Source of the DNA: Nitrososphaerota archaeon
Lineage (GTDB): Archaea > Thermoproteota > Nitrososphaeria > Nitrososphaerales > Nitrosopumilaceae
Direction of reading: 5' to 3'
NCBI GenBank assembly: GCA_021325615.1
Contig: JAJPGU010000013.1
Span: 1 to 42,479, forward strand
DNA length: 42,479 bases
Below the pieces are notes generated by a model. That model was not told the origin of the DNA and did not search any database. It saw only the letters and a program-made list of their open reading frames with translations. Position numbers and translations under genes: made by a program. Below, one piece after another: positions 15,033 through 42,479 of the stretch. Position 1 is the stretch's first letter. The number at the start of each line of letters is the position of its first letter.

Positions 15033-15102
15033 TTAACATCTGAACACAATTGATTACACTGGAGACCCATTCGCTAAATACTTTCTTGTGACATACCAAC
15101 AC

Positions 15103-16521
15103 ATGGACAAAAATTTAGATTTGGAAAAACTCGCAGTCGCGCCGGAGGAACTTTCTTCAGACCTTGAGGGTGGAAGGCCGCTCCTAGTGTTTGACCTCAG
15201 GCTCAAGGAGAACTTTGCACGGGGACATGTCAAGGGGTCTGTCCACGCCGTGTGCGATTCGCGCGCCAAGGAGACCATAATGCCCAAGATTCCAAGGGGG
15301 GTAAGGATTGTGCTAATTGACGAGGACGGGTCCGTGTCTTCGCAGACGGCAGGCATGATGGCATCATACGGGCTTGATGCGCATTTCCTGCGTGGCGGGA
15401 TTAAAAGCTGGGCAGGGGACCTTGTCAGCAGGGACGTCCACATGACGATAACTCCGGAAGAACTCTGGCGCAGGATGGAAAACAACGAGGACCTGGTCCT
15501 CGTGGATGTGAGGCAGCCTGAAGAATTTTCAGACTTTGCGATACCTGGGAGCATAAACATCCCGCTTGGGGACCTGTTCAACAACGAGTCCCTTGATAAA
15601 ATTCCAAGGGGCAGGCAGGTGGTGACAGTCTGCCCGCATGGCAACAGGTCTATGGTTGCAGCCTTTGCCCTTGCAAGGAACGGCACGGAGGCACTCTCGC
15701 TTTCTGGGGGACTTGCAGGGTGGGGTCAGGTCCTAAGCCCAAAAACGCTGGCAAGAGATGGAGCCACGGTCTTGCAGGTGGAAAAGGTCGGAAAAGGCTG
15801 CCTCTCCTATGTCATAGGATCAGGGGGCGAGGCACTGGTGGTCGACCCCGTATATCCTGCAGAAAAGTACATCGAGATAGCAAGAGGCAAGGGACTGGAA
15901 ATAACGAAGGTGATAGACACGCACCAGCATGCCGACCATGTCTCTGCCGCACGCGACCTGGCAGGCCTTGCAGGGGCTGCGCTCTACATGAGCAGGTACG
16001 AGCAGTATGACTTTGAAAGCAGCAGGATTGGGGACGGCGACGTAATACCGGTGGGCGAGTCCTCGGTAAGGGCAGTCCACACGCCGGGGCACACCCCGGG
16101 AAGCCTGTCGCTACTGCTTGATGAAAAATATCTCTTCACCGGCGATGTCCTTTTTGTCGACGGCATAGGGAGGCCTGACCTGCGGGACAGGGCAAGGGAG
16201 TTTGCTGCAAGCCTTTACGACACGCTGCACGGCAAGCTGCTTGTGCTTCCCGGGGACACAAGAATTCTGCCGGCACACCGAGGCGAGCAGGTCCCTCGCG
16301 GGCGGGGGCCGTATCATTCCACAATACGGGCGGCACGAGAAATGGAAATTTTCAGACTGCCACGCGATGCCTTTGTGGAAAAGGTTGCAGGCATGGCACT
16401 TCCAAGGCCCATGAACTATGAGAAGATAATAGGCATAAACAGGTCCAGGGCAAGGGTTCCGGTACCGGAGGTTGCCGACCTTGAGATCGGGCCAAACAGG
16501 TGCGCCATAGCCACTGCCTGA
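15103..16521 (+). CDS. double-rhodanese / metallo-beta-lactamase fusion (persulfide dioxygenase-like)
   Basis: A 472-aa protein with two N-terminal rhodanese domains (about 15-110 and 120-215) and an ETHE1-like metallo-beta-lactamase domain (about 225-400). The first rhodanese lacks the active-site Cys (an IDEDGS stretch at that place). The second has CPHGNRS with Cys177. The metal site HxHxDH is at 274-279, followed by HTPGHTPGS, FTGDVLF and PAHRGE. Likely reaction: oxidation of glutathione- or protein-persulfide to sulfite. CTAAATA lies about 24 nt before ATG 15103, supporting this start over GTG 15088. The TauE-type gene follows directly. Confidence 0.9.
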   Translation: MDKNLDLEKLAVAPEELSSDLEGGRPLLVFDLRLKENFARGHVKGSVHAVCDSRAKETIMPKIPRGVRIVLIDEDGSVSSQTAGMMASYGLDAHFLRGGIKSWAGDLVSRDVHMTITPEELWRRMENNEDLVLVDVRQPEEFSDFAIPGSINIPLGDLFNNESLDKIPRGRQVVTVCPHGNRSMVAAFALARNGTEALSLSGGLAGWGQVLSPKTLARDGATVLQVEKVGKGCLSYVIGSGGEALVVDPVYPAEKYIEIARGKGLEITKVIDTHQHADHVSAARDLAGLAGAALYMSRYEQYDFESSRIGDGDVIPVGESSVRAVHTPGHTPGSLSLLLDEKYLFTGDVLFVDGIGRPDLRDRAREFAASLYDTLHGKLLVLPGDTRILPAHRGEQVPRGRGPYHSTIRAAREMEIFRLPRDAFVEKVAGMALPRPMNYEKIIGINRSRARVPVPEVADLEIGPNRCAIATA

Positions 16522-16535
16522 CCCCCTGGCATATT

Positions 16536-17363
16536 ATGAATCCTGAAGTCTTGAATGCAATAGCGCTGGCAGTGGCTCAACCTGCGGCCGGCCAACTCGG
16601 GCCCGCCGCGGCCCTCCTCTCGCTATTGTCCGGGACTGCTGTGGGGTTCAGCCTGGGGCTAGTGGGCGGCGGAGGCTCGGTCCTTGCCCTGCCCCTTTTG
16701 ATATACGTGGTGGGGCTGCCCCCGCACGTGTCCATCGGGACCTCGGCCCTTTCCGTGGCAGTAAATGCCGTTACAAACCTCGTGCAGCACGCAAGGCGGG
16801 GGCATGTGAGGGCAAAAAAGGGGGTCTTGTTTGCAGTTCCTGGCGCAGCAGGGGCTTTTTTTGGAGCCCAGCTTGGCCTTCTCACGCCGCCAAGCCACCT
16901 GCTTGTCCTGTTCGGCCTGTTCATGATGGGAATTGCGGCATTCATGCTAATCCACAGGCATGCTGCCCGTGGCGGCAACGCAGATGGCGGCAGCGTACGG
17001 CACACGGCGCGCCTTGTTCCCACGGGGGTTCTGGCGGGGCTTGCTGCGGGATATTTTGGAATCGGCGGGGGATTTCTTGTCACGCCGGCGATGATTTACG
17101 CGGGAGGGCTGGGCATTCTTGATGCCATAGGGACATCGCTTCTGCCGGTCAGCGCATTTGGGCTTGCAACGGCGGCAAGATATGCTGCGGAAACCCAGGT
17201 GGACTGGGCGGTATCGGGGCTTTTCATGGCAGGGGGGCTAGGCGGAGGCATGGTGGGCACGAGGCTTGCCGGGAGGCTGCCGCTGGGGGCGCTTGCAAAA
17301 CTTTTTGCGGCAATCCTTGTTGCGGTTGCAGTCTACGTCATTCTCCGCAACCTAGCGGCATAG
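16536..17363 (+). CDS. TauE/SafE family sulfite/anion exporter
   Basis: A 275-aa polytopic membrane protein with about 8 hydrophobic helices and the TauE/SafE repeats (GLVGGGGSVLALPLLIYVVGLPPH in the first half, GYFGIGGGFLVTPAMIYAGGL in the second). The family exports sulfite, sulfoacetate or related anions. ATG 16536 lies 14 nt after the stop of the persulfide dioxygenase-like gene, so the two form an operon: sulfite made by the enzyme could be removed by the exporter. The longer frame from 16500 overlaps that gene and adds a non-membrane stretch. Confidence 0.88.
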   Translation: MNPEVLNAIALAVAQPAAGQLGPAAALLSLLSGTAVGFSLGLVGGGGSVLALPLLIYVVGLPPHVSIGTSALSVAVNAVTNLVQHARRGHVRAKKGVLFAVPGAAGAFFGAQLGLLTPPSHLLVLFGLFMMGIAAFMLIHRHAARGGNADGGSVRHTARLVPTGVLAGLAAGYFGIGGGFLVTPAMIYAGGLGILDAIGTSLLPVSAFGLATAARYAAETQVDWAVSGLFMAGGLGGGMVGTRLAGRLPLGALAKLFAAILVAVAVYVILRNLAA

Positions 17364-17444
17364 GCCTTTAGGGGATTGGGGCCCTAAAACCAATCCTGGT
17401 AATCGTGGTTCGCTGTTAAATAAAAAAAAGGCCAAGGTAAGCAC

Positions 17445-17855
17445 GTGACAAAACCAGGCCTTCTTTTCTATGCGGTGGGTGCGCTGATGTTTGCAACTGG
17501 AGGAATCTATTTTTATGAATCGTATTCTGAGGCGCAGGAATTTGGCACTGAGCTTGCGGCACAGGCGGAAACGATGTTTTTTGCCACCGCCGGCGTGCTG
17601 TACGTCCCGTTTGGAATATGGATGGTCAGAAACAAGATGTCAAGCAGGGCGCCCTATGTGATTTCACTTGCGGGCTCGGCAATGCTGATTGTCCTTTACA
17701 TCGCGTCAAGAAGCGTCAACCTTCCAATAGTGGGCCAGCAGGAGGACGTGGGGGTGACCGACCTTGCAAGCAAGTTCCTCCAGGCCGGGATAATCGCAAT
17801 ATGCGGAGTCCTCCTTGCAAGATCAAAGGGATTCCAGGTAGCGGAGATAAAATGA
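17445..17855 (+). CDS. four-helix membrane protein of unknown function
   Basis: A 136-aa protein with four predicted membrane segments (about 7-23, 42-60, 72-88, 108-124) and short polar loops. The start is GTG at 17445, with TTAAATAAA about 20-25 nt upstream, so leaderless transcription is likely and it is probably separate from the upstream sulfur operon. The family is not recognised. Confidence 0.7.
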   Translation: MTKPGLLFYAVGALMFATGGIYFYESYSEAQEFGTELAAQAETMFFATAGVLYVPFGIWMVRNKMSSRAPYVISLAGSAMLIVLYIASRSVNLPIVGQQEDVGVTDLASKFLQAGIIAICGVLLARSKGFQVAEIK

Positions 17856-17939: not shown

Positions 17940-19856
17940 TCAGGGACCTGCGGGGACGGGCGAGGTGCCAAACATTTCAAGCTCCTCAGAAGAGGGCGTG
18001 ACAAGCACCCGCAGCCTGTGGTGGCGCGTAATTACCAGCGCCTCGCCTGGGTTGAACGAAATTACCATGTCCCTCTCCTGCGGGGACAGGCCAAGCGACC
18101 CGGCAAGCTCGCCTGACGCAACCTCGTTGTTTCGCAGTATTACCTTGGTCTCGGCGTTGTCAAGGAAGGCGCGGCCTGCCTCGGTCCTTGTTACGTCCTC
18201 CACCCTTTGGGAAACAAAGACAAAGACGACGTTCTTCTTCCTGCCCATCCTTGCAAGCAGGTCGACAAACTTGGCGGCGGACGCAAACCTGAAGATGAGG
18301 TGCCCCTCGTCTATCAGGAGGATCTTTGGGACCTCCCTCGGGGCCGAGTCTATCCTCTTCCACAGCCTGGCAAGGGCAAGGAACGATATCCTTGCAACGT
18401 GGTCCTCGGCATAGGTCCCCTTGAGGGACATGACTGTCCTGTCGGAGACCCTCGGGTCGCCGCGGAAGAGCGTTGCGGCAGGGCCCGACACAAAACTGAC
18501 GAGGTACCTCTTCTCGGCGGCATCAAGCCTGTCGTAAAACTCGTCAAGGGACAAGACCCCGCCGCATTTTGCAAGAAAAGAGTTTGCCACAAGCGGCGGG
18601 GCCTGCACCATCTCGCAGAGGACGTTTACGGCATCGGAGGGAGAGTCAAACATTTTGAACGGGTCAAAGCCCAGCTCCTCGCCGCCGGTTATCCTTACAG
18701 GCTCTATACCGAGGTATCCTGCAATCCTCTCGTACTCGCCCTCGGGGTCGACCACGAAGGCCATGGCCCCGGGCCTCCTCTCGACCAGCCTCTTGAGTAT
18801 GAGCTTGGCAGTGACGGACTTGCCGGCCCCGGAGCTTGCAAGCACAAGTATGTTGTAGTTTGACCTCATGGCATAGTCAAATATCACGGGCGCGCCAGTC
18901 GCGCAGTTTGCGCCAAGCGCTATTCCGTCCGGGACCTCAAGCATGTCGGACGAGACAAACGGGTAAAAGACGTCGCACGACCCGAGGTCCACATAGAGCC
19001 TCTTGCCCCAGCCCCAGGCCATCCTTGCCTGGACGGCAGGGGTGCAGTCAAACCTCGAAAGCGATACGGCACACTGCCTTGCAAACTGCCTTCCGGCCTC
19101 GCGCAGCTCGCTTTTTCCTGCAGCAAAGACTGCCGCGTTGAGCGTCACCTCAAAAAGGCGCGTGTTGTTCTTCTCAAGCTCGGCCATCACCCCGAGGCAC
19201 ATCTGGATGTGGCGTGCGACCGTGGGGCTTGGCGAGAGGGTGGACCTCATCAGGTACGCCTTTTTCTGGAGCCTTGCAACGGCCTTTTCCTGCGGGACGG
19301 GTGCAAACTCCATCATTACCGCCCCTGCCGACGATAGCAGCGAGTGGGCCCAGCCGGGGCCAAGCGAGGACGACGGGGCGCAGAGCGTAAAGAACCTGGC
19401 AAGCCTCCCGTCCCGGAGTAGCACGTGGTTCCACATCTCGCGGGACGCCTCCAGCCTTGGCATGGGCGACCTTGCAAACGAAAACCCCTGGGACTCGAGC
19501 ATCCCGTCAAGCGCCTCGGTGCTTGACATGAAAGTCCTTATCACCTGGAGGGTAACCTCGTCTGCCCCCATCGCGACCCGGAGCGGTGCCCGCGACATTG
19601 TTATCCTGAGGGGCTGGCGAATCGACGCAAGTATTGCAAAGAACCTTGAAAGCATGGCAGACTGCTTCTCCGGGGGGAGGGTGAAAAAATTGGTGGGCAT
19701 TACCTCGTACTCGTGAAGGGCCAAGGTCTTCATGCGGTATGATGGCGCGCCGCTCTTAAGGCGCAGATAATCGGCGGCCTGATGAAAAAATGAGATGGAA
19801 AACTTTTCTGCATCGGTCTTGAGGGGGTCACTTTGGGGCAAAATTTTTGAACCCAA
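17940..19856 (-). CDS. VirB4-like type IV secretion ATPase
   Basis: A 638-aa cytoplasmic ATPase of the VirB4/TraC class that powers assembly and transfer in type IV secretion. Walker A ASSGAGKS is at 340-347, followed by the VirB4-type VVDPEGEYE at 368-376. Walker B KILLIDEGH has its acidic pair at 516-517, and a SQR sensor-like motif follows. The N-terminal 300 residues are the less conserved VirB4 domain. The start is TTG at 19856, which lies inside an 11-bp inverted repeat; a later start cannot be excluded. It is last in a run with VirB3- and VirB2-like genes. Confidence 0.88.
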   Translation of the reverse strand: MGSKILPQSDPLKTDAEKFSISFFHQAADYLRLKSGAPSYRMKTLALHEYEVMPTNFFTLPPEKQSAMLSRFFAILASIRQPLRITMSRAPLRVAMGADEVTLQVIRTFMSSTEALDGMLESQGFSFARSPMPRLEASREMWNHVLLRDGRLARFFTLCAPSSSLGPGWAHSLLSSAGAVMMEFAPVPQEKAVARLQKKAYLMRSTLSPSPTVARHIQMCLGVMAELEKNNTRLFEVTLNAAVFAAGKSELREAGRQFARQCAVSLSRFDCTPAVQARMAWGWGKRLYVDLGSCDVFYPFVSSDMLEVPDGIALGANCATGAPVIFDYAMRSNYNILVLASSGAGKSVTAKLILKRLVERRPGAMAFVVDPEGEYERIAGYLGIEPVRITGGEELGFDPFKMFDSPSDAVNVLCEMVQAPPLVANSFLAKCGGVLSLDEFYDRLDAAEKRYLVSFVSGPAATLFRGDPRVSDRTVMSLKGTYAEDHVARISFLALARLWKRIDSAPREVPKILLIDEGHLIFRFASAAKFVDLLARMGRKKNVVFVFVSQRVEDVTRTEAGRAFLDNAETKVILRNNEVASGELAGSLGLSPQERDMVISFNPGEALVITRHHRLRVLVTPSSEELEMFGTSPVPAGP

Positions 19857-20588: not shown

Positions 20589-21224
20589 TTAAGGAACCTT
20601 GGAGGCCCTGACATCGACCGTCTCGGAAAGGACGGGTGTCCCGCCGTCGGCCTCTACCGTTATTGTTTTCTGCCCCTCGGTACCCGGGATTATCACCGCC
20701 TCTACCGTGCCGTTGATGTCGGTAAAGACCGACTCGGTTGAGGCACCGCCAAGCATTATCTTAAAGGACCTGCAGCCAACCGGCCTGCCGCCGCCCTCAA
20801 GCCTTATGCGCAACAGTATGGGGCGCCCGGGGTCTGAAACAAAAATGGTGCGGGACCTCTTCTGGGGAGCCGTGCCGGGCCTTGGCGGGGGATTTTTTTT
20901 CCCCGGCATGCCGCTACGGGCCTTGGTGCCGGATGCGCGCGGGCCCCTCCTTGCGATGGACCTTGCAACAAAGAGAAGCGCGGCCATTGCCATCCACTCG
21001 GCCGGGCCGACGCTTGGCCTGACAAAGGTGAGCAGCGCGCCTATGCATGCGGGGATTGCCGCAAGCGGGCTGTGGCCCGACGAGAAGACGGCGTAGCTTG
21101 CAAGCAGGGACGTGCCAAGCACTACAAACTGCCTCATCGAGAGCCTTCCTATTACTGGAAATGACAGCACGGGCTCGTTGACCGGGCTTACGTCCTCAAA
21201 CCACATCATCTCGGTCTCCCGCAT
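20589..21224 (-). CDS. PrgI/VirB3-like membrane protein with C-terminal Ig-like domain
   Basis: A 211-aa protein. The N-terminal 95 residues have the VirB3/PrgI pattern: a short cytoplasmic lead ending VLSFPVIGRLSMRQFVVLG followed by two membrane helices. A basic, Pro-rich linker leads to a beta-rich domain of about 80 residues (RTIFVSDPGRPILLRIRLEG then DINGTVEAVIIPGTEGQ) like a carboxypeptidase-regulatory/CNA-B Ig-like fold. ATG 21224 is used. It is the first gene of the minus-strand T4SS operon and divergent to the prepilin peptidase. Confidence 0.65.
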   Translation of the reverse strand: MRETEMMWFEDVSPVNEPVLSFPVIGRLSMRQFVVLGTSLLASYAVFSSGHSPLAAIPACIGALLTFVRPSVGPAEWMAMAALLFVARSIARRGPRASGTKARSGMPGKKNPPPRPGTAPQKRSRTIFVSDPGRPILLRIRLEGGGRPVGCRSFKIMLGGASTESVFTDINGTVEAVIIPGTEGQKTITVEADGGTPVLSETVDVRASKVP

Positions 21225-21305
21225 CGCATGATAACCCCGCGCTGGATAAAAGGCAGGAAGGACACGCATCCTGCGGCCCCTTTATGGTACTGCATTTCTT
21301 GTCCC

Positions 21306-22559: not shown

Positions 22560-24305
22560 ATGAAGGCGCCGGGAAGGGTAAAAAAGCTGATGCCAAGGGA
22601 ACGGTACGCCTTTGGCCTTGACTCGCTCATAATGATAGTATCAGCCATTGTAATAATAGGAATAATGGTCGGAATATCGCGCGTGTTTGACAACCAGCTC
22701 GAGTCCTCGTACGTCTCCCTTACGACCTCGATGCCGATGTTTGACCCGTCCGGGCAGTACAACATGACGCTCAAGGGTGGGTTTGACAACCCTGCAGCCT
22801 CGCTGCTTTCGGTATATGGCGCCCTCAGGTCGGGCACGGCCTGGGCCATGGGGGCGCTGCTTGTAATGGCCGGGGTCTTTTTCATGCTAGAGCAGGCCGA
22901 TCTGGTCCAGCCATCGACTGCCTTTGGGGTGATATCAAAGGGGACCCTTTACTTTGTCCTGCTCTTTGGGTTTCCGCCGCTCTGGGACCTGTACTCGTAC
23001 GCCGTGGAGGCAGGCTCGCGCCAGATCCTGGGGCCGGAGGTCAACGGGACGGCACCTGCTGCCGTGGCAAGGGTCTTTGACACCATAAACGGCATGGGGA
23101 TATCGCAGGGCAGGGTGCCGCAGGTGGACAATGCGCTGCTTGCAAGCCTCATCCAGCAGTTCAACGGGGCGCCGCTCCTGACCGGGTTTTCAGACGACGC
23201 AAAATCCTTCATACTGGGACTCGTGGGCGGAATTATCGCCCTTGCATCCTCGTTTCTAACCTACATGTTCTCGGCAATAAGGCAGGTACTTACGGCAGTC
23301 CTCATAGCCGGGCTCCCGGTCATACTGCTGCTCTCTCTTGTACCGTGGTTCCGCGCCATATCGCGGAGGCTGCTTGACACGCTCTTTGGGCTGTCAATAG
23401 TGCCTGTCTTTTCATCGCTTGTGATGGTGACGGGAGCCGCGTACCTCGGGTCTATTGCGGGACACCCGGTGGAGGAGCAGTGGTTTGCAGCAGTCGCGGT
23501 GCTTACGCTTGCCACCTTTGTGCCAACCATCCTCGTGCCGATGCTAGGCTCGATGTTCTCCTCGGTAACAGGCATGATAACCTCGGGGATTGGGTACGCC
23601 GGGATGATGACAACAATAGCTACAGGCACCGGGCGCGGCATGGTGGCAGGTGCGGCAGGGGGATTCCTCTCGGCGCAGCAGCAGGGGCTGCCATATGGCG
23701 TGCCAAACCTCAGGACAAGGGCAGCCGCCGCGGGGGCATGGGGCGGAATCCTCGGCGGGATGGGAGGGGCGGTGCAGGGCACGGCAGGCGCAGGCTCGCA
23801 GGTGCTTCGCAGGGTAGGCGCAGGGGCGGTGGCCCCGGGGGTAAAGTCTGCAGGCGAGGAATTTGGGCGCATGATGCAGAAGGAGGCGCAGGAGCAGGCA
23901 AGGATAGTCATGCAGCCTGCGGTAGACAGGTCGCTTACCAGGTACTCGGCACTGATAATGGGCAAGTTCTCAACCATGCCCACCCCCGAAGACAAACGGG
24001 AGTTTCATGTCCGGGGAGGGGCAGACCTTCTTGGGCTTGCCCGCGAGTCGATTGAGACCAATAGCTATGCAAAGATGGCCTCGCACCCATACTTTAGGGC
24101 CGTCCCCGTAAGCGACAAGGAAACATTTGCAAAGGAAGTCTGCGCCGCAATAGTGAAGCACGGTGATAACCCGGACCGCCTTACCAACATTTCGTACAAC
24201 CTTGAGAGGATTGGGGGATTGAATGACCAGAATCTGAGAGAATTTATCCAAAAAGATAGGGCTAACAGATCTGACCATTCCGGGGAAAATTCAGCCTCGT
24301 TTTGA
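22560..24305 (+). CDS. VirB6/TrbL-like polytopic T4SS channel protein
   Basis: A 581-aa protein with about eight membrane segments in residues 20-350: a first helix at 20-43, helices near 92-110 and 128-149, a large block at 215-265, then 275-300 and 305-350. Next comes a Gly/Ala-rich linker (about 355-420) and a soluble helical C-terminus of about 150 residues. This is VirB6/TrbL organisation. TTAAAAAG lies about 20-25 nt before the ATG. It probably forms the inner-membrane channel used with the VirB4-like ATPase. Confidence 0.75.
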   Translation: MKAPGRVKKLMPRERYAFGLDSLIMIVSAIVIIGIMVGISRVFDNQLESSYVSLTTSMPMFDPSGQYNMTLKGGFDNPAASLLSVYGALRSGTAWAMGALLVMAGVFFMLEQADLVQPSTAFGVISKGTLYFVLLFGFPPLWDLYSYAVEAGSRQILGPEVNGTAPAAVARVFDTINGMGISQGRVPQVDNALLASLIQQFNGAPLLTGFSDDAKSFILGLVGGIIALASSFLTYMFSAIRQVLTAVLIAGLPVILLLSLVPWFRAISRRLLDTLFGLSIVPVFSSLVMVTGAAYLGSIAGHPVEEQWFAAVAVLTLATFVPTILVPMLGSMFSSVTGMITSGIGYAGMMTTIATGTGRGMVAGAAGGFLSAQQQGLPYGVPNLRTRAAAAGAWGGILGGMGGAVQGTAGAGSQVLRRVGAGAVAPGVKSAGEEFGRMMQKEAQEQARIVMQPAVDRSLTRYSALIMGKFSTMPTPEDKREFHVRGGADLLGLARESIETNSYAKMASHPYFRAVPVSDKETFAKEVCAAIVKHGDNPDRLTNISYNLERIGGLNDQNLREFIQKDRANRSDHSGENSASF

Positions 24306-24462: not shown

Positions 24463-25197
24463 TTACTGATTGCTGGATTGCAATTGCCTTCTTGCCCTGA
24501 CACTTTCGCATTTTTCCCGCGCTACTATAGAGACAAATTGGTAGAAAGTGAACCCTTTCTTTTTGTAATCGCGCGGCCTGCACATCTGGACGTCCATCTC
24601 CAACATGCTGACTGAGAATTCTTCAAAATCCCTGAAGACCACGGCGGCCATCTCTGCCTCCCCCTCTGTCATGTCCCCATACCTCCACCTGAGGAACCCC
24701 TTGAGGTCGGCAAAGTCCTTGTAGGTCAGGTTCTCGTGATCCACGACAAGGAGATACGGATCTACGCTTGGCGTGCCAATCCTGACATTCTTTACAAATT
24801 CGGAAAGGTATCCTGCCCTCTCCGGCTTGAGAAATGTCATGATATGGTCCCAGTTTGCCTCAAACCAGCGGGCCTCAGACTCGGAATGGGCGTCCTGGTC
24901 AAACGGGGCACCTGCAGGCATGCCGCGGATTCCCGAAATGGCCTTGACCGCGTCGGCAGCCCCGATCACCCTGAACTCGTAGGGCCTCTTGTTCTGGCCC
25001 CTTGGCACGAATACCATCCTGTCCTTTTTCACGACGGAAATCTCGCCTGCATCGCCAAAGCCAAGGTCAAGCACATCTCCCCGGCGGGACTCGAAGACAA
25101 GGCCCGAGTCGAGAAGGTACAGGACTCCCTTTCCAAGGGACGGGGCCTCGGCCTCAAATGCTCCAAGGATGGCTGCGCCCGACGGTACTGTAATCAT
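24463..25197 (-). CDS. hypothetical protein with N-terminal PH/GRAM-like domain
   Basis: A 244-aa soluble protein. The first 85 residues alternate short beta strands (GVLYLLDSGLVFESRRG, EISVVKKDRMVFVP, PYEFRVIGAADAVKAI) in a way that resembles a PH/GRAM-like fold. The rest is helical with acidic patches. ATG 25197 is preferred to GTG 25221 because TTAA lies about 24 nt upstream of it. No catalytic motif is seen. It is convergent with the virB6-like gene, so a link to the T4SS is only positional. Confidence 0.6.
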   Translation of the reverse strand: MITVPSGAAILGAFEAEAPSLGKGVLYLLDSGLVFESRRGDVLDLGFGDAGEISVVKKDRMVFVPRGQNKRPYEFRVIGAADAVKAISGIRGMPAGAPFDQDAHSESEARWFEANWDHIMTFLKPERAGYLSEFVKNVRIGTPSVDPYLLVVDHENLTYKDFADLKGFLRWRYGDMTEGEAEMAAVVFRDFEEFSVSMLEMDVQMCRPRDYKKKGFTFYQFVSIVAREKCESVRARRQLQSSNQ

Positions 25198-25368
25198 GGG
25201 CTCTATATGGCGCGATCTCACTTAAGGATTCAGGTACATCGATACCTATTTGGATTGAGGAAAAAGTTTCTACCAGAAGAAGGTTTAGGTGGAAAACATC
25301 GCACACTTTATAGGCAAGTGAACGGTACACCAGCCAATGGCTTGCCGGAAGGGGCATAAAGGCGGGAT

Positions 25369-26711: not shown

Positions 26712-27029
26712 TTAGTTCCACACCCTGTGGCGGTAGCCGTCTCCCTGCGGTATCCAGAGGTCTTCCTGGCCTGGGTTGGTTGCATTCCACACTATGTTGA
26801 GCCCAAGCGACTCGGCATACAGGCCAGCCTCCTCCATTGCCGCATAGGCCACCTCTGCTATCTTTCGCGCCGACCCGTCAAGATAGCGGGCAAGTATGAT
26901 TCCAAGGACACGCGTCTCAGACTCGGTGCCAGAGTATTCCTCTGCAAGTCCCTCGGATATCTTGAGGTCGATGGCGGTCTTGATGAGTGCCATGGCTACC
27001 TTTTCCTCGGTCTTTTTCTCCCGGTTCAA
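26712..27029 (-). CDS. hypothetical helical protein, last gene of a secreted-protein operon
   Basis: A 105-aa cytosolic-looking protein with charged N-terminal helices (EEKVAMALIKTAIDLKISEG) and a C-terminal aromatic segment. The TTG start overlaps the stop of the preceding gene (TTGA, 27026-27029). Family unknown. The overlap and biased codon use support it as real. Confidence 0.6.
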   Translation of the reverse strand: MNREKKTEEKVAMALIKTAIDLKISEGLAEEYSGTESETRVLGIILARYLDGSARKIAEVAYAAMEEAGLYAESLGLNIVWNATNPGQEDLWIPQGDGYRHRVWN

Positions 27030-29891: not shown

Positions 29892-30221
29892 TTGAGTCAT
29901 AACGTCAAGCGGGATTTCCTTACATTCATGCGAAAAATGTCAAAGAAGGGATTCTACGACGTTCTAAACCACGTGAATGAGAAGAAGAATGTTCACTACA
30001 ATGATGTACTGAATTATCTTCTAGACAAGAAAATTGTGGATAGCAGGGCCTCGGTAACAATCATCCTCAATGGGCTGACAAACCTAGGCCTGCTTGAGAG
30101 GACCGTCACAAATACCCGGCCGGTCAGGACAATCTATCAGGTTAGCTCAAACGGCCATGCGATTCTAAAGATCCTGAGGGACCTTGAGACCTCGCATTCA
30201 AACCTGCACCATGTCGGCTAA
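29892..30221 (+). CDS. winged-helix transcriptional regulator
   Basis: A 109-aa protein with a winged-helix core (KGFYDVLNHVNEKKNVHYNDVLNYLLDKKI then TIILNGLTNLGLLERTVTN and a wing TIYQVSSNGHAILKIL). The start is TTG 29892, or ATG 29928. It is divergent to the secreted operon, with about 170 bp of A+T-rich DNA between. Its last 80 bp overlap the 3' end of the convergent gene at 30142. Confidence 0.7.
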   Translation: MSHNVKRDFLTFMRKMSKKGFYDVLNHVNEKKNVHYNDVLNYLLDKKIVDSRASVTIILNGLTNLGLLERTVTNTRPVRTIYQVSSNGHAILKILRDLETSHSNLHHVG

Positions 30222-30876
30222 GGTTGCATTGGTGCTGGCTTGGAAGTTCCTTTGCAAGTCTTGCTTTCTCCTGTACTAATGAGAAAATCCTGAATTCGTC
30301 GTCCTTCAATTTACTCGTTTGAGCCTCAAGGCTTTCAAGAATCTGCCGATATCTGCCCATGAGATCTTCCAAAATCTGGGGCGACACTACGATGGATTTT
30401 TTGTAATGCCTTGAGGCGTATCCTTTCTTCCTTAGCATCGTGAATATCCTGTTGATGTATTTTTGGGAATAATACTCCCCGAATATGTCCTCAAAGGCCT
30501 CCCTGGTGTAAAACCAAGTGCCTCCGTTCCTTGCATGCCTGTCCTGGGTGCAGCAGGCAGGTGCAAGCAGGCAGAGCGCGCTGAACCTGATTCCGAGGTG
30601 TCTTGATACCACAAGCCACCTCCCAAGGTCTGTAAGCGCATATTTGCTACCCGTCCTTCCAATGATGCCGCGCCTTGCCAGCCTCCTTACCGCGGTCCTG
30701 AGGCTCTGGGGTGCGGCATTTCTGACAATGGGGGATTCCATGCGCATCTGGGACTGGGCCATGGCACCATATGGAAAGAGGAGCCTTGCAACCTCGGAGG
30801 TTATCGGCCCCTCGGGTCCACGGGCATTGCCGTACGCATGTCTCCGCAACTCCTTCCGCAGCCTTGGCGGTATCAT
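30142..30876 (-). CDS. winged-helix DNA-binding protein at the end of the PolB cluster
   Basis: A 244-aa basic protein. Two winged-helix-like units are visible: about 25-90 (SLRTAVRRLARRGIIGRTGSKYALTDLGRWL) and 115-165 (FEDIFGEYYSQKYINRIFTMLRKKGYASRHYKKSIVV). A helical, coiled-coil-prone segment follows. The start overlaps the parB-like stop (ATGA at 30873-30876). The last 27 codons overlap a convergent gene and may be non-essential. It probably binds DNA; role unknown. Confidence 0.65.
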   Translation of the reverse strand: MIPPRLRKELRRHAYGNARGPEGPITSEVARLLFPYGAMAQSQMRMESPIVRNAAPQSLRTAVRRLARRGIIGRTGSKYALTDLGRWLVVSRHLGIRFSALCLLAPACCTQDRHARNGGTWFYTREAFEDIFGEYYSQKYINRIFTMLRKKGYASRHYKKSIVVSPQILEDLMGRYRQILESLEAQTSKLKDDEFRIFSLVQEKARLAKELPSQHQCNLSRHGAGLNARSQGPSGSLESHGRLS

Positions 30877-31910
30877 CTTGAAAGTATTACCACCATCCTG
30901 GCATGTGCGCCATTTTTGAAAGACGATGCAAGCTTCTCAAGGTCTTTTCTTGAGCCTATCTTTACAAAGCGCAGCGAGTCTACGTCGGCCTCCAGAAAGT
31001 CAAGTGCAGTCTCAGGTATCATGATGGCAGGCCTTGCAGGGTCCTCCCCCTCCAGCCTGACAAAACTGTCCCTCTCGTCGTCGCGGATGCTAGAGACAGC
31101 GCGGGTCTTGGTGTTGATGAGCATCCTCTTGCCGCATGTGCACATGAGTATCGAGTCATGGGCAGACCCCCTGACAAGATTCTCTGCCTCCTTCCTGCTT
31201 ATCCTTGCCCCATGGCTTCCTTCCTCTGGTTCGAATATGACTACCTCCTTTTCCTCCGCTTTTTTAGGCCTGAGCGACAGCGCAATCACATCAAGGTCTG
31301 CAGGCGACGGGAAGGCAAACCTCGACTCCTTTGCGCTCCTTACCGCGTTTAGCACAATCTTTACGGTCTTGAACTGCTCCTCCTTGTCCTCTATTGAGGC
31401 AAGCCGTGCAGCTACGTAGAATGGCATCTCGACTATCCGGTACTTTTTGCAGGCATCCGCAAGGAATTCCTCAATCATCTTCCGTGACTTTTCATGAAGG
31501 AAGCCCCTTGCAAGCAGCGAGTACCTCTGGGAGACAAGCCCCGGCGAATCGCGGGCCCCTATGTATGATAGGGCGTCCATCATGGCTATCGGGTTTATCG
31601 AGCCGTGCGTGTTAAGCTCGATGTGCAGCCTTACTGCCTCCCTGAGATCCTCAAGCCTTACCAGGCGCGCCCTTGAATGTCCGACTTTTGCCATGCCTAG
31701 TGCGGACGCGCGCAGGTGGCCGTCTACAAGGAACCTTTCGTTTCCGACAAGCGCAACCGTGATGGGCTCTATCCTTTCAGGGTGGGACCTTGCGGTATTG
31801 AAAACCTCGGAAAGGAGGTCTGCTGTCTGCAGTGTCACCTTGAAAGGGCACGGCTTGAGGTCCGCAAGGGGGACCTGCCCATCCTCAAACTTGTACATGG
31901 AGCCCGACAC
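30873..31910 (-). CDS. ParB-like nuclease-fold protein
   Basis: A 345-aa protein. The N-terminal ParB/sulfiredoxin-type domain carries ERFLVDGHLRASAL (DGHLR at 63-67), the ParB NTPase/nuclease signature region. The middle is helical and a CTCGK motif sits in the C-terminal half. Classical partners (ParA) are absent. In Sulfolobales a ParB-like protein is among the strongest UV-induced genes, which fits its place beside a PolB2-type polymerase and a TFIIB-like factor. It overlaps the TFB-like gene by 26 nt and the next gene by 4 nt. Confidence 0.8.
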   Translation of the reverse strand: MSGSMYKFEDGQVPLADLKPCPFKVTLQTADLLSEVFNTARSHPERIEPITVALVGNERFLVDGHLRASALGMAKVGHSRARLVRLEDLREAVRLHIELNTHGSINPIAMMDALSYIGARDSPGLVSQRYSLLARGFLHEKSRKMIEEFLADACKKYRIVEMPFYVAARLASIEDKEEQFKTVKIVLNAVRSAKESRFAFPSPADLDVIALSLRPKKAEEKEVVIFEPEEGSHGARISRKEAENLVRGSAHDSILMCTCGKRMLINTKTRAVSSIRDDERDSFVRLEGEDPARPAIMIPETALDFLEADVDSLRFVKIGSRKDLEKLASSFKNGAHARMVVILSR

Positions 31911-32772
31911 TCCTTCTTGCTATCTCAAAGGACCTCCTTGCCCTCTCGTCGTCCCTCCCCTTCAAGACCATCTCGAGGTTCCTAAACGCAAGTGCCGAGA
32001 CCCTGTTGTATACCTCGCCCGGGCCGATCTCGTCCTGCAGCCTTTTGAGGAGGAGCCTGAGGTGGTATGAGGCCTTGTCAAACTCCATGCTGATATCAAG
32101 GTCCCTGGCCGTAAGCTCTACAAGGGAGTAAGCCCTTAGCATCGTGAAATTTTTCTTTGACCCAAAGTTTGTGAGAACGGCCCCGATTATTGCGTCGTTT
32201 GAACGCGGGAGGGAGTTCCTGTTGCAGGCAAGGTGGATGGAAAAAGCTGCAACGTGGGCCTTTGTAAAATTCTTCGGCCTCTCCGGCCCGGCAGGGGCTC
32301 CTGCAACAGCCGGGTGATTCAACTGCGGGCGTTCATGTCCCCCTCTTGGGACTGCCCTGCCTTTCTGCTTGCTCCTGATTATCTTGACGTATGTTGTATA
32401 GGCCTCCTTTGCGGCATGCATGGGCATGTCAAGCTTGGCGCAGATGCTTGATATCCTAGACATGTCGCGGCTTGGTTCGTGGATGTGCCTTGCGCACTCT
32501 AGTGCAACCCTTGCCGTCCCAACGCCCTCGGCTTGGTACAGGTTCAGCTTGGATGCGGGGGCGGCCTCTGCCTGCTGGTACTCGACGCCTAGCACCGCGC
32601 CGCACCCAGTGCAGCATACCTCCGAGTCTGCAACGACCGTCCTTGCCGCCCCGCAGCTGGGGCACGCCGCATCTGGCGGAGCGGGTTCCAGGATATGGAT
32701 CTTTTCACGTGTTCCATTTTCTGTACCGTTCTTCTGGTTGATTGTACCGTCCCTCTTGGCTGTCCAGTACAT
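31885..32772 (-). CDS. TFIIB-like transcription factor
   Basis: A 295-aa protein with an N-terminal zinc ribbon (C37, C40, C54, C57 in CPSC and CTGC) and two helical cyclin-like segments (about 85-130 and 165-270). The B-reader/linker region between ribbon and cyclin folds is short and unlike general TFBs. It could be an alternative initiation factor for specific promoters, comparable to TFB3 of Sulfolobales. It lies 111 bp downstream of the polymerase gene, and its 3' end overlaps parB. Confidence 0.8.
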   Translation of the reverse strand: MYWTAKRDGTINQKNGTENGTREKIHILEPAPPDAACPSCGAARTVVADSEVCCTGCGAVLGVEYQQAEAAPASKLNLYQAEGVGTARVALECARHIHEPSRDMSRISSICAKLDMPMHAAKEAYTTYVKIIRSKQKGRAVPRGGHERPQLNHPAVAGAPAGPERPKNFTKAHVAAFSIHLACNRNSLPRSNDAIIGAVLTNFGSKKNFTMLRAYSLVELTARDLDISMEFDKASYHLRLLLKRLQDEIGPGEVYNRVSALAFRNLEMVLKGRDDERARRSFEIARRSVGLHVQV

Positions 32773-32883
32773 GCAAGTATGATATTCAGAGTCCTAATAA
32801 GGTAGATCGCATATATGACAAGAATCCATCTTCGGGGGCACTCTTCTAAATGCCGGATATTGAAGAGGGTTCGATCTCCAAAG

Positions 32884-35064
32884 TCAGGAACATCGGTCTG
32901 TAACTTCCATCCCGAAAGGGGCAGTAAGGGTATTGCAGCACTCTGCAAGGAGCCTGGAATACCTCCTTATGTCGTACCTCGCATCGCCCATCCCGAGGGG
33001 CGCGGCCCGGCGCGTCCTCCTCGAGTGGTCGGAAACCACATACCTGACCTTCTGGCCTGCCCGTACGTGCTCGCCCTCCTCCTCAAGCCAAAGCATGGCG
33101 TCCCTCTGGACCGACCTTGCAGTGTACTTGTCAAGGTCCTTTGAGGCCCTGGTGGTAAATGCAAGCTCAGACGGGGGGACAGTACCAGACCTGAGCATGG
33201 CGAGGTACCTCCGGTATATGGCACCTACCTGCGGCATGATCTTGCGGACCTCTGCGACGCTGCCTGCCGATGCCATGAGGCCGAGCACCTCGGCCTGGCA
33301 CCTCTTGAAGAACTGCGGCGTGTCGTGCCTCCTTGACTCTATCCCCCGTATCTTTGCCTTGCCCGTGTCAAACGCCCCAAAGTACCTGTTTGCAACGGGA
33401 AGCGAGGGGTCGTCCTTTGAGGGCAGGAATGCAACCCACTTGTAGATGTCAAGCGACATCTCAAACCCCGTTGCCTCTGATATCTCGCTTCGCACCGCCT
33501 CGCAGTCCTCCCTTGTCGCGCCCTCCTTTTTGAGCCACAGCGAGTCCACTATGCCGTGCAGCACTGTAAACCCGTTCTTCTCGGCAATCCTTACGGCCTG
33601 GAGCAGTATCCTCCTTGCAAAGGCGCAGACTGCCATGTGGGCGTCTATCCTGCCAAACTTGGCGTTGTTGAACCCAAGGTACCCAAACGATGTCACAAGG
33701 ATCCACTTGAGCGCCGACTTTCTTGCGTCGTATATGTGGCGCCTGCCGTCGTCGGGCCCTGCCAGAAGCTCGCCGTACCTCCTCCTCTTCCGCAGGAGTA
33801 TGCCAAGCGACTGCGGGACAATGCCCGTCCTCCGGCATATGTTGTACCCAAGCTCGGGAACCCTGTTCTCCGATCCGGGACAGCAGGGGCACAGGATTGT
33901 CTCGGCCGAGATGTTCTTCTTCTCCATTATGCTGCCATAAAGCGATGCAAAGTCAAGCTCAGCGACATTCTCGTACGTGCCTGCCCTCGGCTCGAAGATG
34001 AGCCCTCCCCTGTCGCCTATTATGAGCTCGGCGCGGGGCTTGAAGGCCTCCGCCATGACGGGCTTCCACGGAATGAGGAGTCCCCGCCTTGTCGCGTTGT
34101 AGAACTGGAGCGAGCTCATGCATTTTCCAATCGATGCCCTGCATGCCGTCTGCACCGGCATCCTGCAGACGCGCGCAATCTCGTACAGCCCGTGAAGGTC
34201 CGACATGCCGCCCCAGATGAAGCAGCCCGAGGTGTCTATGTGTAGGCGGCCAAGAAGCTTTACGGGGGACGGCTTGAAGTACATCCTGCCGTACGAAAAG
34301 TAGGACGTGCCTGCCTGCCTTGGCGCCTGGAGCGGGACCTTCTCCCTGCCCAAAACCAGCCTGTCGGAGACGCGACAGAGGCGGGCCCTGTAAATGAGGT
34401 ACGGCAGGTCAAACGAGTCGCCATTCTCGGTCAAGACAAGGTCGGGGTCCTCCCTTGACATCTCCCCTACAAACTGCAGTATCGTCTCGGCCTCGTCGCC
34501 ACACTGTATGGAAACGTCCCCTGCGGATATCGAGCGTATCCTGTCGGAGAATTTTGCAAGCCTCCCCTTCTTTTCGGGGTTGACTGACACCCGCATAACG
34601 CGGAGGGGCGGTATGTTGTAGTCAGTCGACTCTACATCGTCGTCAGGCGACCATGCGCTTCCCCTGGAGAACCATCCGAACGGGAATATGTCGTGCTCGT
34701 AAAAATAGCCCTGGGCTGGGGGGACGTCGACATTGTACAGCCTGCATCCAATCTTGCCGTCAAGCGACTCGACTGTCCTTGCAAGATGAAGGACGGAGTT
34801 TGAGTCCCTGAGCCGCACCTGGAGGACCGGGGACTTGGAGGCGTCGGTGGCCTTTTCAAACCTTGATGTTATCTCGCAAGACGCGGCAAGGGCGCACACC
34901 CTCCTGTCGGATGATATCTTTTCAAGCTTGCCCATGTCGTCGCACGCGACGTAGATGGAGGGCGTCCAGCCGTCCTCGATTCTGGCCGTCCTGTCGCCGT
35001 CCTTTATCCATGATACCATGGTACTCCCCACGGGATACGAGTCAAAGAGGAACCCTGATGTCAT
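32884..35064 (-). CDS. family B DNA polymerase, PolB2-like, with degenerate exonuclease I and variant motif C
   Basis: A 726-aa polymerase from ATG 35064. The exo I DxE is lost (RVSV at about 158-161) while exo II NGDSFD is kept (214-219). Motif A is DFASLYGSI (D371), with Gly for the usual Pro. Motif B region runs from K449 to LVTSFGYLGF. Motif C is GIVDS (D507), lacking the first Asp of DTD but keeping the metal-binding one. A Cys cluster (C392, C394, C395, C410) lies between motifs A and B. This pattern fits the archaeal PolB2 group linked to translesion synthesis and DNA-damage mutagenesis. The start overlaps the upstream stop (ATGA). Confidence 0.88.
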   Translation of the reverse strand: MTSGFLFDSYPVGSTMVSWIKDGDRTARIEDGWTPSIYVACDDMGKLEKISSDRRVCALAASCEITSRFEKATDASKSPVLQVRLRDSNSVLHLARTVESLDGKIGCRLYNVDVPPAQGYFYEHDIFPFGWFSRGSAWSPDDDVESTDYNIPPLRVMRVSVNPEKKGRLAKFSDRIRSISAGDVSIQCGDEAETILQFVGEMSREDPDLVLTENGDSFDLPYLIYRARLCRVSDRLVLGREKVPLQAPRQAGTSYFSYGRMYFKPSPVKLLGRLHIDTSGCFIWGGMSDLHGLYEIARVCRMPVQTACRASIGKCMSSLQFYNATRRGLLIPWKPVMAEAFKPRAELIIGDRGGLIFEPRAGTYENVAELDFASLYGSIMEKKNISAETILCPCCPGSENRVPELGYNICRRTGIVPQSLGILLRKRRRYGELLAGPDDGRRHIYDARKSALKWILVTSFGYLGFNNAKFGRIDAHMAVCAFARRILLQAVRIAEKNGFTVLHGIVDSLWLKKEGATREDCEAVRSEISEATGFEMSLDIYKWVAFLPSKDDPSLPVANRYFGAFDTGKAKIRGIESRRHDTPQFFKRCQAEVLGLMASAGSVAEVRKIMPQVGAIYRRYLAMLRSGTVPPSELAFTTRASKDLDKYTARSVQRDAMLWLEEEGEHVRAGQKVRYVVSDHSRRTRRAAPLGMGDARYDIRRYSRLLAECCNTLTAPFGMEVTDRCS

Positions 35065-35306
35065 CCCTTTGATTTTTTTATCAGGAACTCTATCATCTGC
35101 TGCTGGGACAGTATGAGGGACATGAGCACAGATTCGGTCGGGAGCGCCTCGCCCTTGGCATTGATTGCCCTGACATGGCGGTAGCATCTTTCAAGCATCT
35201 GGCGGAATGTTTCCCGGTCCTCTGCCCTCAGCCCGTCGGCAAACCCCTGCCAGGACTCTATCTCCCTTGCCAGTATGTCATCTTTTGGAAATAGGGCCAC
35301 GGTCAT
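35061..35306 (-). CDS. small helical protein, paralogue 2 of the PolB2 operon
   Basis: An 81-aa all-helical protein with the pattern W-x-x-F-x-x-x-L-x-x-x-DR-x-x-F and a C-terminal LILSQQQMIEFL helix. The upstream gene encodes a protein with the same spacing of W, F, L, DR/DE, F, R and a final LxxQ helix, so the two look paralogous and might form a heterodimer. ATG 35306 overlaps the upstream stop, and its TGA overlaps the polymerase start. Function unknown; probable polymerase accessory. Confidence 0.65.
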   Translation of the reverse strand: MTVALFPKDDILAREIESWQGFADGLRAEDRETFRQMLERCYRHVRAINAKGEALPTESVLMSLILSQQQMIEFLIKKSKG

Positions 35307-35539
35307 CCCTCCATGAGGGGGAGCACCTGGCCGTACTGGTACAGCAGCATCGCCATCATGATGCAGTGGATCCTGACAGGCCTTGCAGCCATCATGCACG
35401 CCGATATGTGTAGCCTTGATGATGCAAAGAGCCTGTCAAACATGCCGCGCTCGTCCCGGTCAAGCGCATCCCTGAAAGCCTTCCATTTTTTCTCCTCCTG
35501 GTAAAGCGCAATCCTAAACGACGGAACCGTCCTGCCCAT
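35303..35539 (-). CDS. small helical protein, paralogue 1 of the PolB2 operon
   Basis: A 78-aa protein from ATG 35539, 2 nt after the stop of the RecA-like gene. GGAGGT lies 5 nt upstream, a rare clear Shine-Dalgarno here, as expected for an internal operon gene. It contains KKWKAFRDALDRDERGMFDRLF and a Met/Leu-rich C-terminal helix. It is related to the next gene by residue pattern. The longer frame from 35587 overlaps the RecA-like gene. Confidence 0.65.
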   Translation of the reverse strand: MGRTVPSFRIALYQEEKKWKAFRDALDRDERGMFDRLFASSRLHISACMMAARPVRIHCIMMAMLLYQYGQVLPLMEG

Positions 35540-35541
35540 GT

Positions 35542-36363
35542 CTACCTCCGTGAAATGACCTCGAGATCGTCCTCTCTTATGGCGCACCTGCTCTCCTCGA
35601 GGCCTACCGATACCCCGTCCTCCCCGTCGTGCAGGTGGATGACCCTGTCAAACGATCTGGAAATGACATCGTCATACCTTGTGGGGCCGGACACCGATGC
35701 AATCACAAGGCACTCCCTTAACTTTGATATGGATTCCAGGATGGAGCCAATCTGCCTTGCGGCATCCTTCATGTCAAGGTGCGGGTCGGAAAACATTGCT
35801 AGCATGTCAGATATCATGACAATCTTGGCGCCGCGCTTTTTTACAACAGGCAAAAGCTCGCGCGATATCAAGTTCTCAAGCTGATATATCGTAAACGCCC
35901 GTGCCGAGATTATCCTTGACAGCGTAATGCTTACGTCAAGGCCGTACTGGCGCGCAAAATTTATGCAAAGATATGGATCGGAGCTGTTCCCGCCGTCCAC
36001 TATGACCACGTCGGAGTCAAGGCCGCCATGCCTGTGCGGAAGCTGGGCGCGCACCGCAAGCCTCTCGATTATCTTCTGCGACTGGCGCCCTGACAGGAGG
36101 ATCCTCTGCCCTAGGCTCAGGAACGGAAGCATGGAATCCACCTTCCTGATGTCTATTGTCAGCCGCGGGACCTTGGATGCCGCCTGGAAGACGGGGACGT
36201 TCCCAGCCTTCTGTCCGAGACGCCTCTTGCCAAGGCTCTCGGAGAGGAGCGAGCCGCAAAATGGGCATGGCTCTGATATGCCTCCGAGGATTATCTCGGA
36301 CTCGGTCTCCCGCAGAACGTTCTCGCACTTGGAGCAGTAGTATTGCAGCCGCTGGAATGCCAT
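35542..36363 (-). CDS. RecA/RadB-like protein with zinc ribbon and no Walker A
   Basis: A 273-aa protein. The N-terminal zinc ribbon is C10, C13, C33, C36. A RecA-type core follows: LSLGQRILLSGRQSQKIIERL in place of the P-loop (no GKT/S), then VVIVDGG, AKIVMISDM and ECLVIASVSGP strands. The fold is that of RadA/RadB paralogues but it should not hydrolyse ATP by the normal route. As first gene of the PolB2 operon it resembles ImuA, the RecA-like partner of bacterial mutagenic polymerases. TTTTATA is 26 nt before the ATG. Confidence 0.75.
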   Translation of the reverse strand: MAFQRLQYYCSKCENVLRETESEIILGGISEPCPFCGSLLSESLGKRRLGQKAGNVPVFQAASKVPRLTIDIRKVDSMLPFLSLGQRILLSGRQSQKIIERLAVRAQLPHRHGGLDSDVVIVDGGNSSDPYLCINFARQYGLDVSITLSRIISARAFTIYQLENLISRELLPVVKKRGAKIVMISDMLAMFSDPHLDMKDAARQIGSILESISKLRECLVIASVSGPTRYDDVISRSFDRVIHLHDGEDGVSVGLEESRCAIREDDLEVISRR

Positions 36364-36395
36364 AGGTACGGTAAATTACGGTAACAGCTATAAAA
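36364..36395 (-). promoter_or_regulatory. promoter of the PolB2 operon with two TACGGTA boxes
   Basis: TATAAAA (36389-36395 on the plus strand, TTTTATA on the minus strand) lies 26 nt before the ATG at 36363. Between it and the start are two TACGGTA copies, 36367-36373 and 36377-36383, exactly one helical turn (10 bp) apart. A repressor bound here would block the start site. The boxes share a 7-bp core with the GTACCGTA family near 22-26 kb. Confidence 0.6.
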
Positions 36396-41117: not shown

Positions 41118-42479
41118 ATGAATTCAAATAATTCCAAGGCTGTACCCGTCGCAAAAAAGGTGCTCGCCATCGCATTTGCATACGTTGTTCTTTCGTCGCT
41201 TGTAGTTTTTGCCACCGACGCCTATGCGCAGGTCGACTCGGCAGTCTCGACAGTTTCCGACACGGCTACCTCGGCAGTCGTCACTGCGAGCAATACGGCA
41301 AGCTCCGCAGTAGAGGCGGCAGACCAGAACTCCACGGCTGGAATCAACAACGCCGTGCCAGTTGCAATTGACAAGATCAAACTGGCGTCCCAACAAGCGA
41401 TAATCTCGGTTGAAAGTGCCGCACAGAATGCAACAGATGCGACAAACACGGCCTCAAGCGACGCAGTCTCGGCAGTCATGGCCGCAAACCAGTCGGCCAC
41501 TCCTACATCTGACACGGTTGCCCAGGCTGCAATCTTGGGAATAGCCAAGGTGAACAACACCGCAATCTCCGGGATTTCCAAGATTCCACCAGCAGCAGCC
41601 CGTGCAATATCACTTGCAAACAACACCTCGATTTCCGCAATTGAAACAGTGACCCCGGCTGCGGCATGTGCGATCGCCACGGCAAATAGGGAGTCTGACT
41701 TTGCTGTAAACACTGCAGGCAACGAGGCAGTATTGGTAGTCTCTGCCTCGACACCTGTGACAATCGAGACCGTCAACGCCGCGGACCAAAAGGGCGAGGC
41801 GCAGGTTGGAAGTACAAGCCAGTCGGCCGAGTCTGCAATAGTCTCTGCAAACGAGTCTTCAACATCGACGACAAACACCGTCACCCAGGCAGCCCTATCA
41901 GGAATCGCCCAGGTCAACCAGTCAGCATCGGAAGAGATAAGCACGGTTGCACCGGTGGCAACGACAGAAATAGGTATCGCAAACCAGACGGCGGTCGCCG
42001 AGGCAGGCATCGTAACGCCCACCTCAATATCCGAGATAGACATGGCTACCAAGGCGTCTCTTGATGAGATGAATATGGCAACGCAGGCAGCACTTGCCCA
42101 GATAAACATTGCAGGCCAGCTTGCAAACGGCCTGCCTGTGGCATCCACTGCCTCTTCCATAGTTACCGGGGCAAACCAGACCGGCTCTTCGGGGGTAATC
42201 CAGGCAAACCAGACCGCAACAACTACCATATCGTCCACGGGACAGTCTGCCCAGTCATCAATCATGAATTCGACCCCGCAGGCAATCACTGCGGTTAACG
42301 ACGCGGCTCAGAACGGAAACACCGCGGTCTCAGGTGCAAGCAACAATGCCGTTGCAGCTGTAGTTGCGGCAAACCAGACCCTAAACTCGCTCAAGGGCAC
42401 GGTTGCCCAGACGGCGATCACAGGAATATCTAAGGTAAACCAGACGGCAAACTCTGCCATTTCCGCAGTGACACCTGCC
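41118..42479 (+). CDS. long surface protein built from 11-residue (hendecad) repeats, truncated by the window end
   Basis: The frame is open for 454 codons to the last base. A signal peptide (VLAIAFAYVVLSSLVVFATDAYA) ends near residue 37. From residue 42 onward the sequence divides into about 38 consecutive 11-residue units, consensus A/G-I/V-x-x-A/V-N/T-Q/P-x-A-x-S, with one 2-residue phase slip near residue 350. Many units carry an NQT/NNT/NAT sequon at the same place. This predicts a long, glycosylated helical stalk or fibre. Composition is almost only A, S, T, N, Q, V, I. The C-terminal anchor lies outside the window. Confidence 0.8.
   Translation, partial: MNSNNSKAVPVAKKVLAIAFAYVVLSSLVVFATDAYAQVDSAVSTVSDTATSAVVTASNTASSAVEAADQNSTAGINNAVPVAIDKIKLASQQAIISVESAAQNATDATNTASSDAVSAVMAANQSATPTSDTVAQAAILGIAKVNNTAISGISKIPPAAARAISLANNTSISAIETVTPAAACAIATANRESDFAVNTAGNEAVLVVSASTPVTIETVNAADQKGEAQVGSTSQSAESAIVSANESSTSTTNTVTQAALSGIAQVNQSASEEISTVAPVATTEIGIANQTAVAEAGIVTPTSISEIDMATKASLDEMNMATQAALAQINIAGQLANGLPVASTASSIVTGANQTGSSGVIQANQTATTTISSTGQSAQSSIMNSTPQAITAVNDAAQNGNTAVSGASNNAVAAVVAANQTLNSLKGTVAQTAITGISKVNQTANSAISAVTPA

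Follow-up and report, generated by a model that had tools for sequence, protein, structure and literature searches.

The 42,479-nt contig JAJPGU010000013.1 (assembly GCA_021325615.1; hereafter the window), from an ammonia-oxidising archaeon of the Candidatus Nitrosotalea group, contains a PolB2 mutasome operon of known kind that is probably carried in an island resembling an integrative-conjugative element (ICE). The mutasome would thus be accessory cargo of an ICE-like island of ~41 kb, which encodes a VirB4/VirB6/VirD4-type transfer apparatus. Both modules are already known, and the new point is the apparent mobility of the mutasome, which we infer, as we do that of the island. An earlier note on this DNA had read seven overlapping genes as one coupled operon. 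All seven reading frames are present at 30142-36363 on the minus strand, yet a 111-nt gap (32773-32883, from the PolB2 stop to the TFB-like start) divides the first four from the last three, and this gap, together with the overlaps within each half, indicates two compact operons in line rather than one seven-gene run. Judged by sequence, 36363-32884 is a PolB2 mutasome operon of the published kind, in its duplicated-PPB2 variant, and 32772-30142 is a second operon, a marker of archaeal ICEs.

The window begins with nadC and rpoE, the latter (1759-2388, minus strand; RNA polymerase subunit E', with copies 89-97% identical in the genus) forming the left chromosomal border. Of the seven relatives read, six have rpoE and mrp next to each other, a short gap apart, and the seventh, G134, has ~15.5 kb between them. 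In the window genome, ~41 kb separates the two genes, mutasome included. At its right end the window breaks off within a gene for a long repeat protein that is rich in Ala, Thr and Ser and fibronectin-like at its C-terminal end (41118-42479, plus strand), which resumes in the same orientation on a second contig, C32 (positions 3-1136), the two protein halves matching at 1e-45; mrp stands at C32:1203, ~1.2 kb from the start of that contig. The repeat gene probably breaks the assembly between the window and C32, and the simplest reading is an insertion of ~41 kb between rpoE and mrp that encloses the mutasome. Given the insert in G134 as well, the space between rpoE and mrp (window 2388-2572 and C32:1136-1203) seems to be a hot spot for insertion.

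The inserted segment encodes the parts of a transfer apparatus. Its first gene after rpoE specifies a TraD/VirD4-like (HerA-type) ATPase (2572-5205, minus strand; DUF87 2e-9, TrwB_AAD_bind 1.3e-4, TraD 1.3e-7), with a homologue in the ICE of another genus genome, G218. The VirB4-like transfer ATPase (17940-19856, minus strand) matches the TraG P-loop domain at 7.7e-10 and a VirB4-type NCBIfam model at 2.5e-26, under the cut-off of that model. A PrgI/VirB3-like membrane protein (20589-21269, minus strand; weak PrgI match, 0.007) stands beside VirB4 in other ICEs as well, and a VirB6-like polytopic membrane protein (22560-24305, plus strand; no Pfam match and a weak NCBIfam mobilome membrane protein match, 0.003) is conserved together with the three-gene operon described below at five loci (L154, L155, L157, L159 and L171). 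The VirB3 and VirB6 assignments, drawn from the PrgI match and the conserved neighbourhood, are weaker than those of VirB4 and VirD4.

The second operon, a trio on the minus strand, comprises genes for a TFB-like protein with a zinc ribbon and cyclin-like repeats (31885-32772), a ParB-like protein whose ParB N-domain carries DGHLRASAL (30873-31910) and a winged-helix protein (30142-30876), with overlaps of 26 nt between the first two and 4 nt between the last two. The predicted fold of the TFB-like protein matches TFIIB structures (best 5.5e-4; profile match to 1pft TFIIB, 0.011) and that of the ParB-like protein matches Noc/ParB (3.9e-7; profile match to Noc, 2e-4), both from structure models of moderate confidence. 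The three genes stand together and in the same order at all 20 trio loci examined, which come from two families, and a winged-helix homologue lies directly downstream of the ParB-like gene at every one of them. Across 400 genomes of the class, 76 of which contain VirB4, the trio co-occurs with VirB4 in 29 of the 37 genomes that have the ParB-like gene (odds ratio 24, p=1e-16). In line with this, Krupovic et al. 2019 (PMC6563490) state that every thaumarchaeal ICE they found encodes a TFIIB homologue, in most cases immediately upstream of a ParB-like gene, and that the pair is accompanied by VirB4, VirD4, VirB6 and VirB3. The trio is probably the regulatory and partition operon of the element: its TFB-like factor would divert transcription towards element promoters, while its ParB-like and winged-helix products would bind element DNA for segregation or control.

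The mutasome operon, also on the minus strand, is headed by iRadA (35542-36363), an inactive RadA/Rad51 homologue that likewise heads the conserved PolB2 operon in relatives. Its Pfam Rad51 match (7e-8) begins only at residue ~97, past the ATP-binding loop, and it also matches RadA/RAD51 structure chains; on direct reading of the sequence, the Walker A motif GxxxxGKT is absent and the stretch where it is expected reads LLSGRQSQKIIER. Two small helical proteins follow, PPB2a (35303-35539) and PPB2b (35061-35306), which occupy the same places in relatives and are PPB2 paralogues, the MGRT motif beginning only the first. PPB2a starts internally, at 35539 within the open reading frame 35303-35587, so that the protein begins MGRTVPSF; this start and those of PPB2b (35306) and PolB2 (35064) are internal starts common to relatives. 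PPB2a and PPB2b overlap by 4 nt, as do PPB2b and PolB2, and the end of iRadA and the start of PPB2a meet around 35539-35542. The last gene, PolB2 (32884-35064), encodes a family-B translesion-type polymerase that matches Pfam DNA_pol_B at 4e-25 and an NCBIfam type B polymerase model at 1.7e-118, under the curated cut-off of that model. Its motif A, DFASLY, is kept, and its motif C reads HGIVDS in place of YGDTDS, which loses the first Asp of DxD; GIVDS is common to all 12 aligned PolB2 sequences. In the tree, the window PolB2 falls inside the Nitrososphaeria PolB2 clade, apart from PolB1, and nests with the PolB2 of two other genus genomes (SH-aLRT 98-100%). The closest named PolB2 loci are in a Thaumarchaeota metagenome-assembled genome (71%) and a Candidatus Nitrosotalea one (66%), and these matches are the basis for placing the window in the Nitrosotalea group.

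The gene identities proposed in the earlier note are thus borne out for all seven genes: a PolB2-type polymerase that groups among PolB2, a RecA-like protein lacking Walker A, two small helical proteins, a TFIIB-like factor, a ParB-like protein and a winged-helix protein. The mutasome interpretation of that note holds for PolB2, the inactive RecA-like protein and the two small proteins, a combination already published, and fails for the seven-gene whole. In the same 400 genomes, which yield 60 PolB2 loci, iRadA and PPB2 are regular PolB2 neighbours, usually in the same order; profiles detect iRadA at 45 and PPB2 at 46 of the 60 loci, many of those without a match being contig ends or diverged copies. 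This operon was described by Makarova et al. 2014 (PMC4104785), and Timinskas et al. 2025 (PMC11791011) modelled its products as a PolB2-PPB2(3)-iRadA heteropentamer, defined the MGRT motif and reported that in duplicated PPB2 only one copy retains the MGRT arm. The window operon shares with the published one (Sulfolobales Dpo2) its gene set, the order iRadA-PPB2-PPB2-PolB2, the inactive RadA, MGRT in one of two PPB2 copies and the substituted DxD, and differs in lying in an ICE-like island. Following the published models, PolB2, three PPB2 and iRadA would form one translesion polymerase in which iRadA and the PPB2 MGRT arm dock on PolB2, and this complex would extend mismatched or damaged primer ends. 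Complex formation and mutagenic function in the window are presumed by analogy with these two papers.

PolB2 occurs in only 3 of the 32 sampled genomes of the genus, each time in a different setting: in the island described here, near integrase-like and small ICE-type genes in G218, and near housekeeping genes in G367. Three differing settings fit an accessory, movable operon. On the other hand, several observations weigh against cargo status. The PolB2 tree follows the host family, which shows long residence there, so the operon could be an old gene set of the genus caught up in an element. The join between the window contig (C7) and C32 rests on gene order and the repeat protein, without overlapping sequence. 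A tyrosine integrase was not detected on the window, either as a PF00589 match or as a relative of the G218 integrase, so the island may be fixed. Orthologues of some island genes, such as the one at 38348 for an MFS transporter, occur at other places in the genus, so the island may be a patchwork. A search for attachment repeats found no clear repeat common to both island ends, with short chance-like matches only; the GATTT[T/A]GCC similarity at both borders is suggestive at most. Because neither an integrase nor attachment repeats were found, we call this segment an ICE-like island, not a proven ICE.

These points also bear on the alternative that the mutasome is a resident chromosomal operon rather than ICE cargo, and that an ICE, or what is left of one, has inserted next to the operon or been rearranged about it. 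The grouping of the three genus PolB2 sequences in a tree that follows the family, the G367 copy near housekeeping genes and the lack of a detected integrase on the window all favour residence. The presence of PolB2 in so few of the sampled genomes, in contexts that all differ, speaks against it, as do the integrase-like gene ~5 kb from the G218 copy and the two borders of the inserted segment, rpoE and mrp, which enclose the window mutasome. We regard a resident operon as improbable on balance, and carriage as island cargo as the likely reading. If true, a mutasome on a conjugative island would account for the patchiness of PolB2 in the genus, and mobile mutasomes, known from bacteria, would extend to ammonia-oxidising archaea.

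A second alternative keeps all seven genes as one damage-response operon in which the trio regulates or serves the mutasome. The genes do lie closely packed on the same strand, and titles cited in PMC8764526 and PMC11868833 describe control of damage genes by a TFB paralogue and an Orc1/Cdc6 protein in Sulfolobales. However, the trio adjoins PolB2 at none of the 60 loci of the class, and 80 named PolB2 loci, drawn mostly from those same species and often on short contigs, show no ParB, no winged-helix gene and a single weak match to TFB alone. There is no co-occurrence of PolB2 with the ParB-like gene in the 400 genomes (both in 4; odds ratio 0.36), the 111-nt gap separates the halves, and the trio is an ICE module. 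Both halves are much more conserved than chance would give, but each independently, and their juxtaposition is seen in this window alone. A conserved seven-gene operon is rejected on the neighbourhood counts and the 400-genome co-occurrence, and a shared damage-response function for the seven genes here is very unlikely. The earlier note's self-contained, transcriptionally controlled damage operon is therefore not upheld: the trio is absent at the 60 PolB2 loci and goes with VirB4 instead, and homologues of the seven genes rarely co-occur across relatives, an outcome that the note itself had named as refuting; the other one it named, a polymerase outside PolB2, was not observed. What looks like an archaeal damage super-operon is two known modules placed side by side, and recognising it as such spares others that reading. 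As for the polymerase being the element's own replicative enzyme, a casposon- or virus-like PolB such as the casposon-like one of the thaumarchaeal ICE NitEve-E6 (PMC6563490), this is scarcely credible, given the lost first Asp of DxD, the iRadA and MGRT-PPB2 neighbours and a position nested in a clade whose members share the mutasome operon; a casposon or viral polymerase is rejected on clade and operon, with a tree built without casposon PolB.

A candidate operator, TTACCGTAATTTACCGTA (36367-36384, minus strand), stands ahead of iRadA, between its start and a TTTTATA box. This 18-bp site has a 10-bp tandem repeat, that is, two copies ten bases apart. The identical site occupies the same place in G218 (L032:11608-11625), whose PolB2 is 71% identical to that of the window, despite diverged DNA further upstream. 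Neither genome has another exact copy; with up to 3 mismatches allowed, 0.05 matches are expected in the window, and the site was found in no other fetched locus. A second genomic TTACCGTA site, which would suggest a regulon, was sought: no exact copy occurs, and two-mismatch copies are about as frequent as those of a reversed control. The position of TTACCGTAATTTACCGTA points to repressor binding ahead of an iRadA transcript that is probably leaderless. The tandem TTACCGTA site, lying between the TATA box and the place where the iRadA mRNA starts, is the most likely point of mutasome control: a repressor bound there would block polymerase recruitment. The 18-bp site gives a concrete handle on PolB2 operon control in this archaeal group. 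The tandem TTACCGTA site is not mentioned in the consulted parts of PMC4104785 and PMC11791011. The N-terminus of the window iRadA carries a four-Cys zinc-ribbon-like segment (CSKC...CPFC) ahead of the RadA-like domain, which is likewise not mentioned in the same parts of these PolB2 papers.

In most relatives a divergent RHH-type gene lies upstream of the TFB-like gene; in the window PolB2 occupies that place, and the trio lacks both its usual divergent gene and its upstream region. With PolB2 in that position, transcripts from the mutasome promoter could run on into the ICE operon. We consider it unlikely that the mutasome promoter, with its own tandem operator, does read into the trio, such that DNA damage would induce mutagenic repair at the same time as element control or transfer; if true, this would be an archaeal counterpart of SOS-inducible, mutasome-carrying conjugative elements. 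At five related ICE loci (L158-L162), ACATGTTA-type repeats (ACATGTTANNNACATGTTA...ACAAGTTTA) lie within ~160 nt upstream of the TFB-like gene, between it and the divergent RHH-type gene, and could be a centromere or operator. Downstream of the trio, six loci (L152, L154, L159, L160, L164 and L165) encode an actin-like ATPase (MTAIGLDxGTGFVKCVSD...), followed in several of them by a gene for a ~94-aa protein; a possible explanation is an actin-based segregation system of these ICEs.

Compared with the thaumarchaeal ICEs of PMC6563490, the window is alike in having a TFB-like gene directly upstream of a ParB-like gene, with VirB4, VirB6, VirB3-like and VirD4-like genes. It differs in lacking a detected integrase, in having PolB2 where relatives usually have the RHH gene and in carrying a PolB2 mutasome, whereas that survey names a polymerase, a casposon-like PolB, in one ICE only. 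The RumAB/MucAB Pol V mutasomes, named in PMC11791011, are likewise mutagenic polymerase complexes on mobile elements, but they use an unrelated Y-family polymerase with a UmuD-like partner, and the likeness is one of analogy only. The bacterial ImuA-ImuB-DnaE2 mutasome also differs: the window polymerase belongs to family B, and no Y-family gene is among the seven. The Sulfolobales damage regulon (TFB3, ParB-like, Dpo2, Ced/Ups) has similar protein classes and a transfer apparatus related to type IV secretion systems; this likeness is at the level of protein class, and the window TFB-like and ParB-like genes sit in an ICE operon.

PolB2 is already known from extrachromosomal elements: 104 plasmid records, of which those listed are mostly haloarchaeal, and 4 Leptospira phages. 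These copies are about 30-33% identical to the window PolB2 among the listed matches, belong to other element types and show no TFB-ParB-winged-helix operon in the stretches read; in the one Haladaptatus plasmid read, Cdc6 and two small-to-medium genes lie upstream of PolB2. Searches of IMG/VR for PolB2 or ParB-like relatives gave pattern matches, none confirmed. The phage and haloarchaeal plasmid copies (L218, L219) represent a repeated association of PolB2 with extrachromosomal elements.

Additional observations concern the neighbourhood. In G218, the tyrosine-integrase-like gene (L032:16742-17821, G218:C44) precedes the PolB2 operon by ~5 kb, and an ICE-type RHH gene stands in the interval. 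A small gene of the window (26712-27029, minus strand) has homologues both in a G218 ICE (L156:12587-12940) and beside the G218 PolB2 operon (L032:4611-4940). Within the island, an open reading frame at 5132-6133 was considered as mrp and rejected, its translation not being mrp. A large surface protein (6653-8944, minus strand) is conserved alongside the transfer genes, its homologues being encoded next to VirB4 in the G218, G095, G079 and G077 ICEs, and an ICE-associated protein (24463-25221, minus strand) has homologues near the trio at L154-L157 and L159. The region 11526-17855 encodes a peptidyl-prolyl isomerase, phosphoesterase-like, cupredoxin-like, RHH and rhodanese/metallo-hydrolase proteins and a permease, genes that are likely island cargo.

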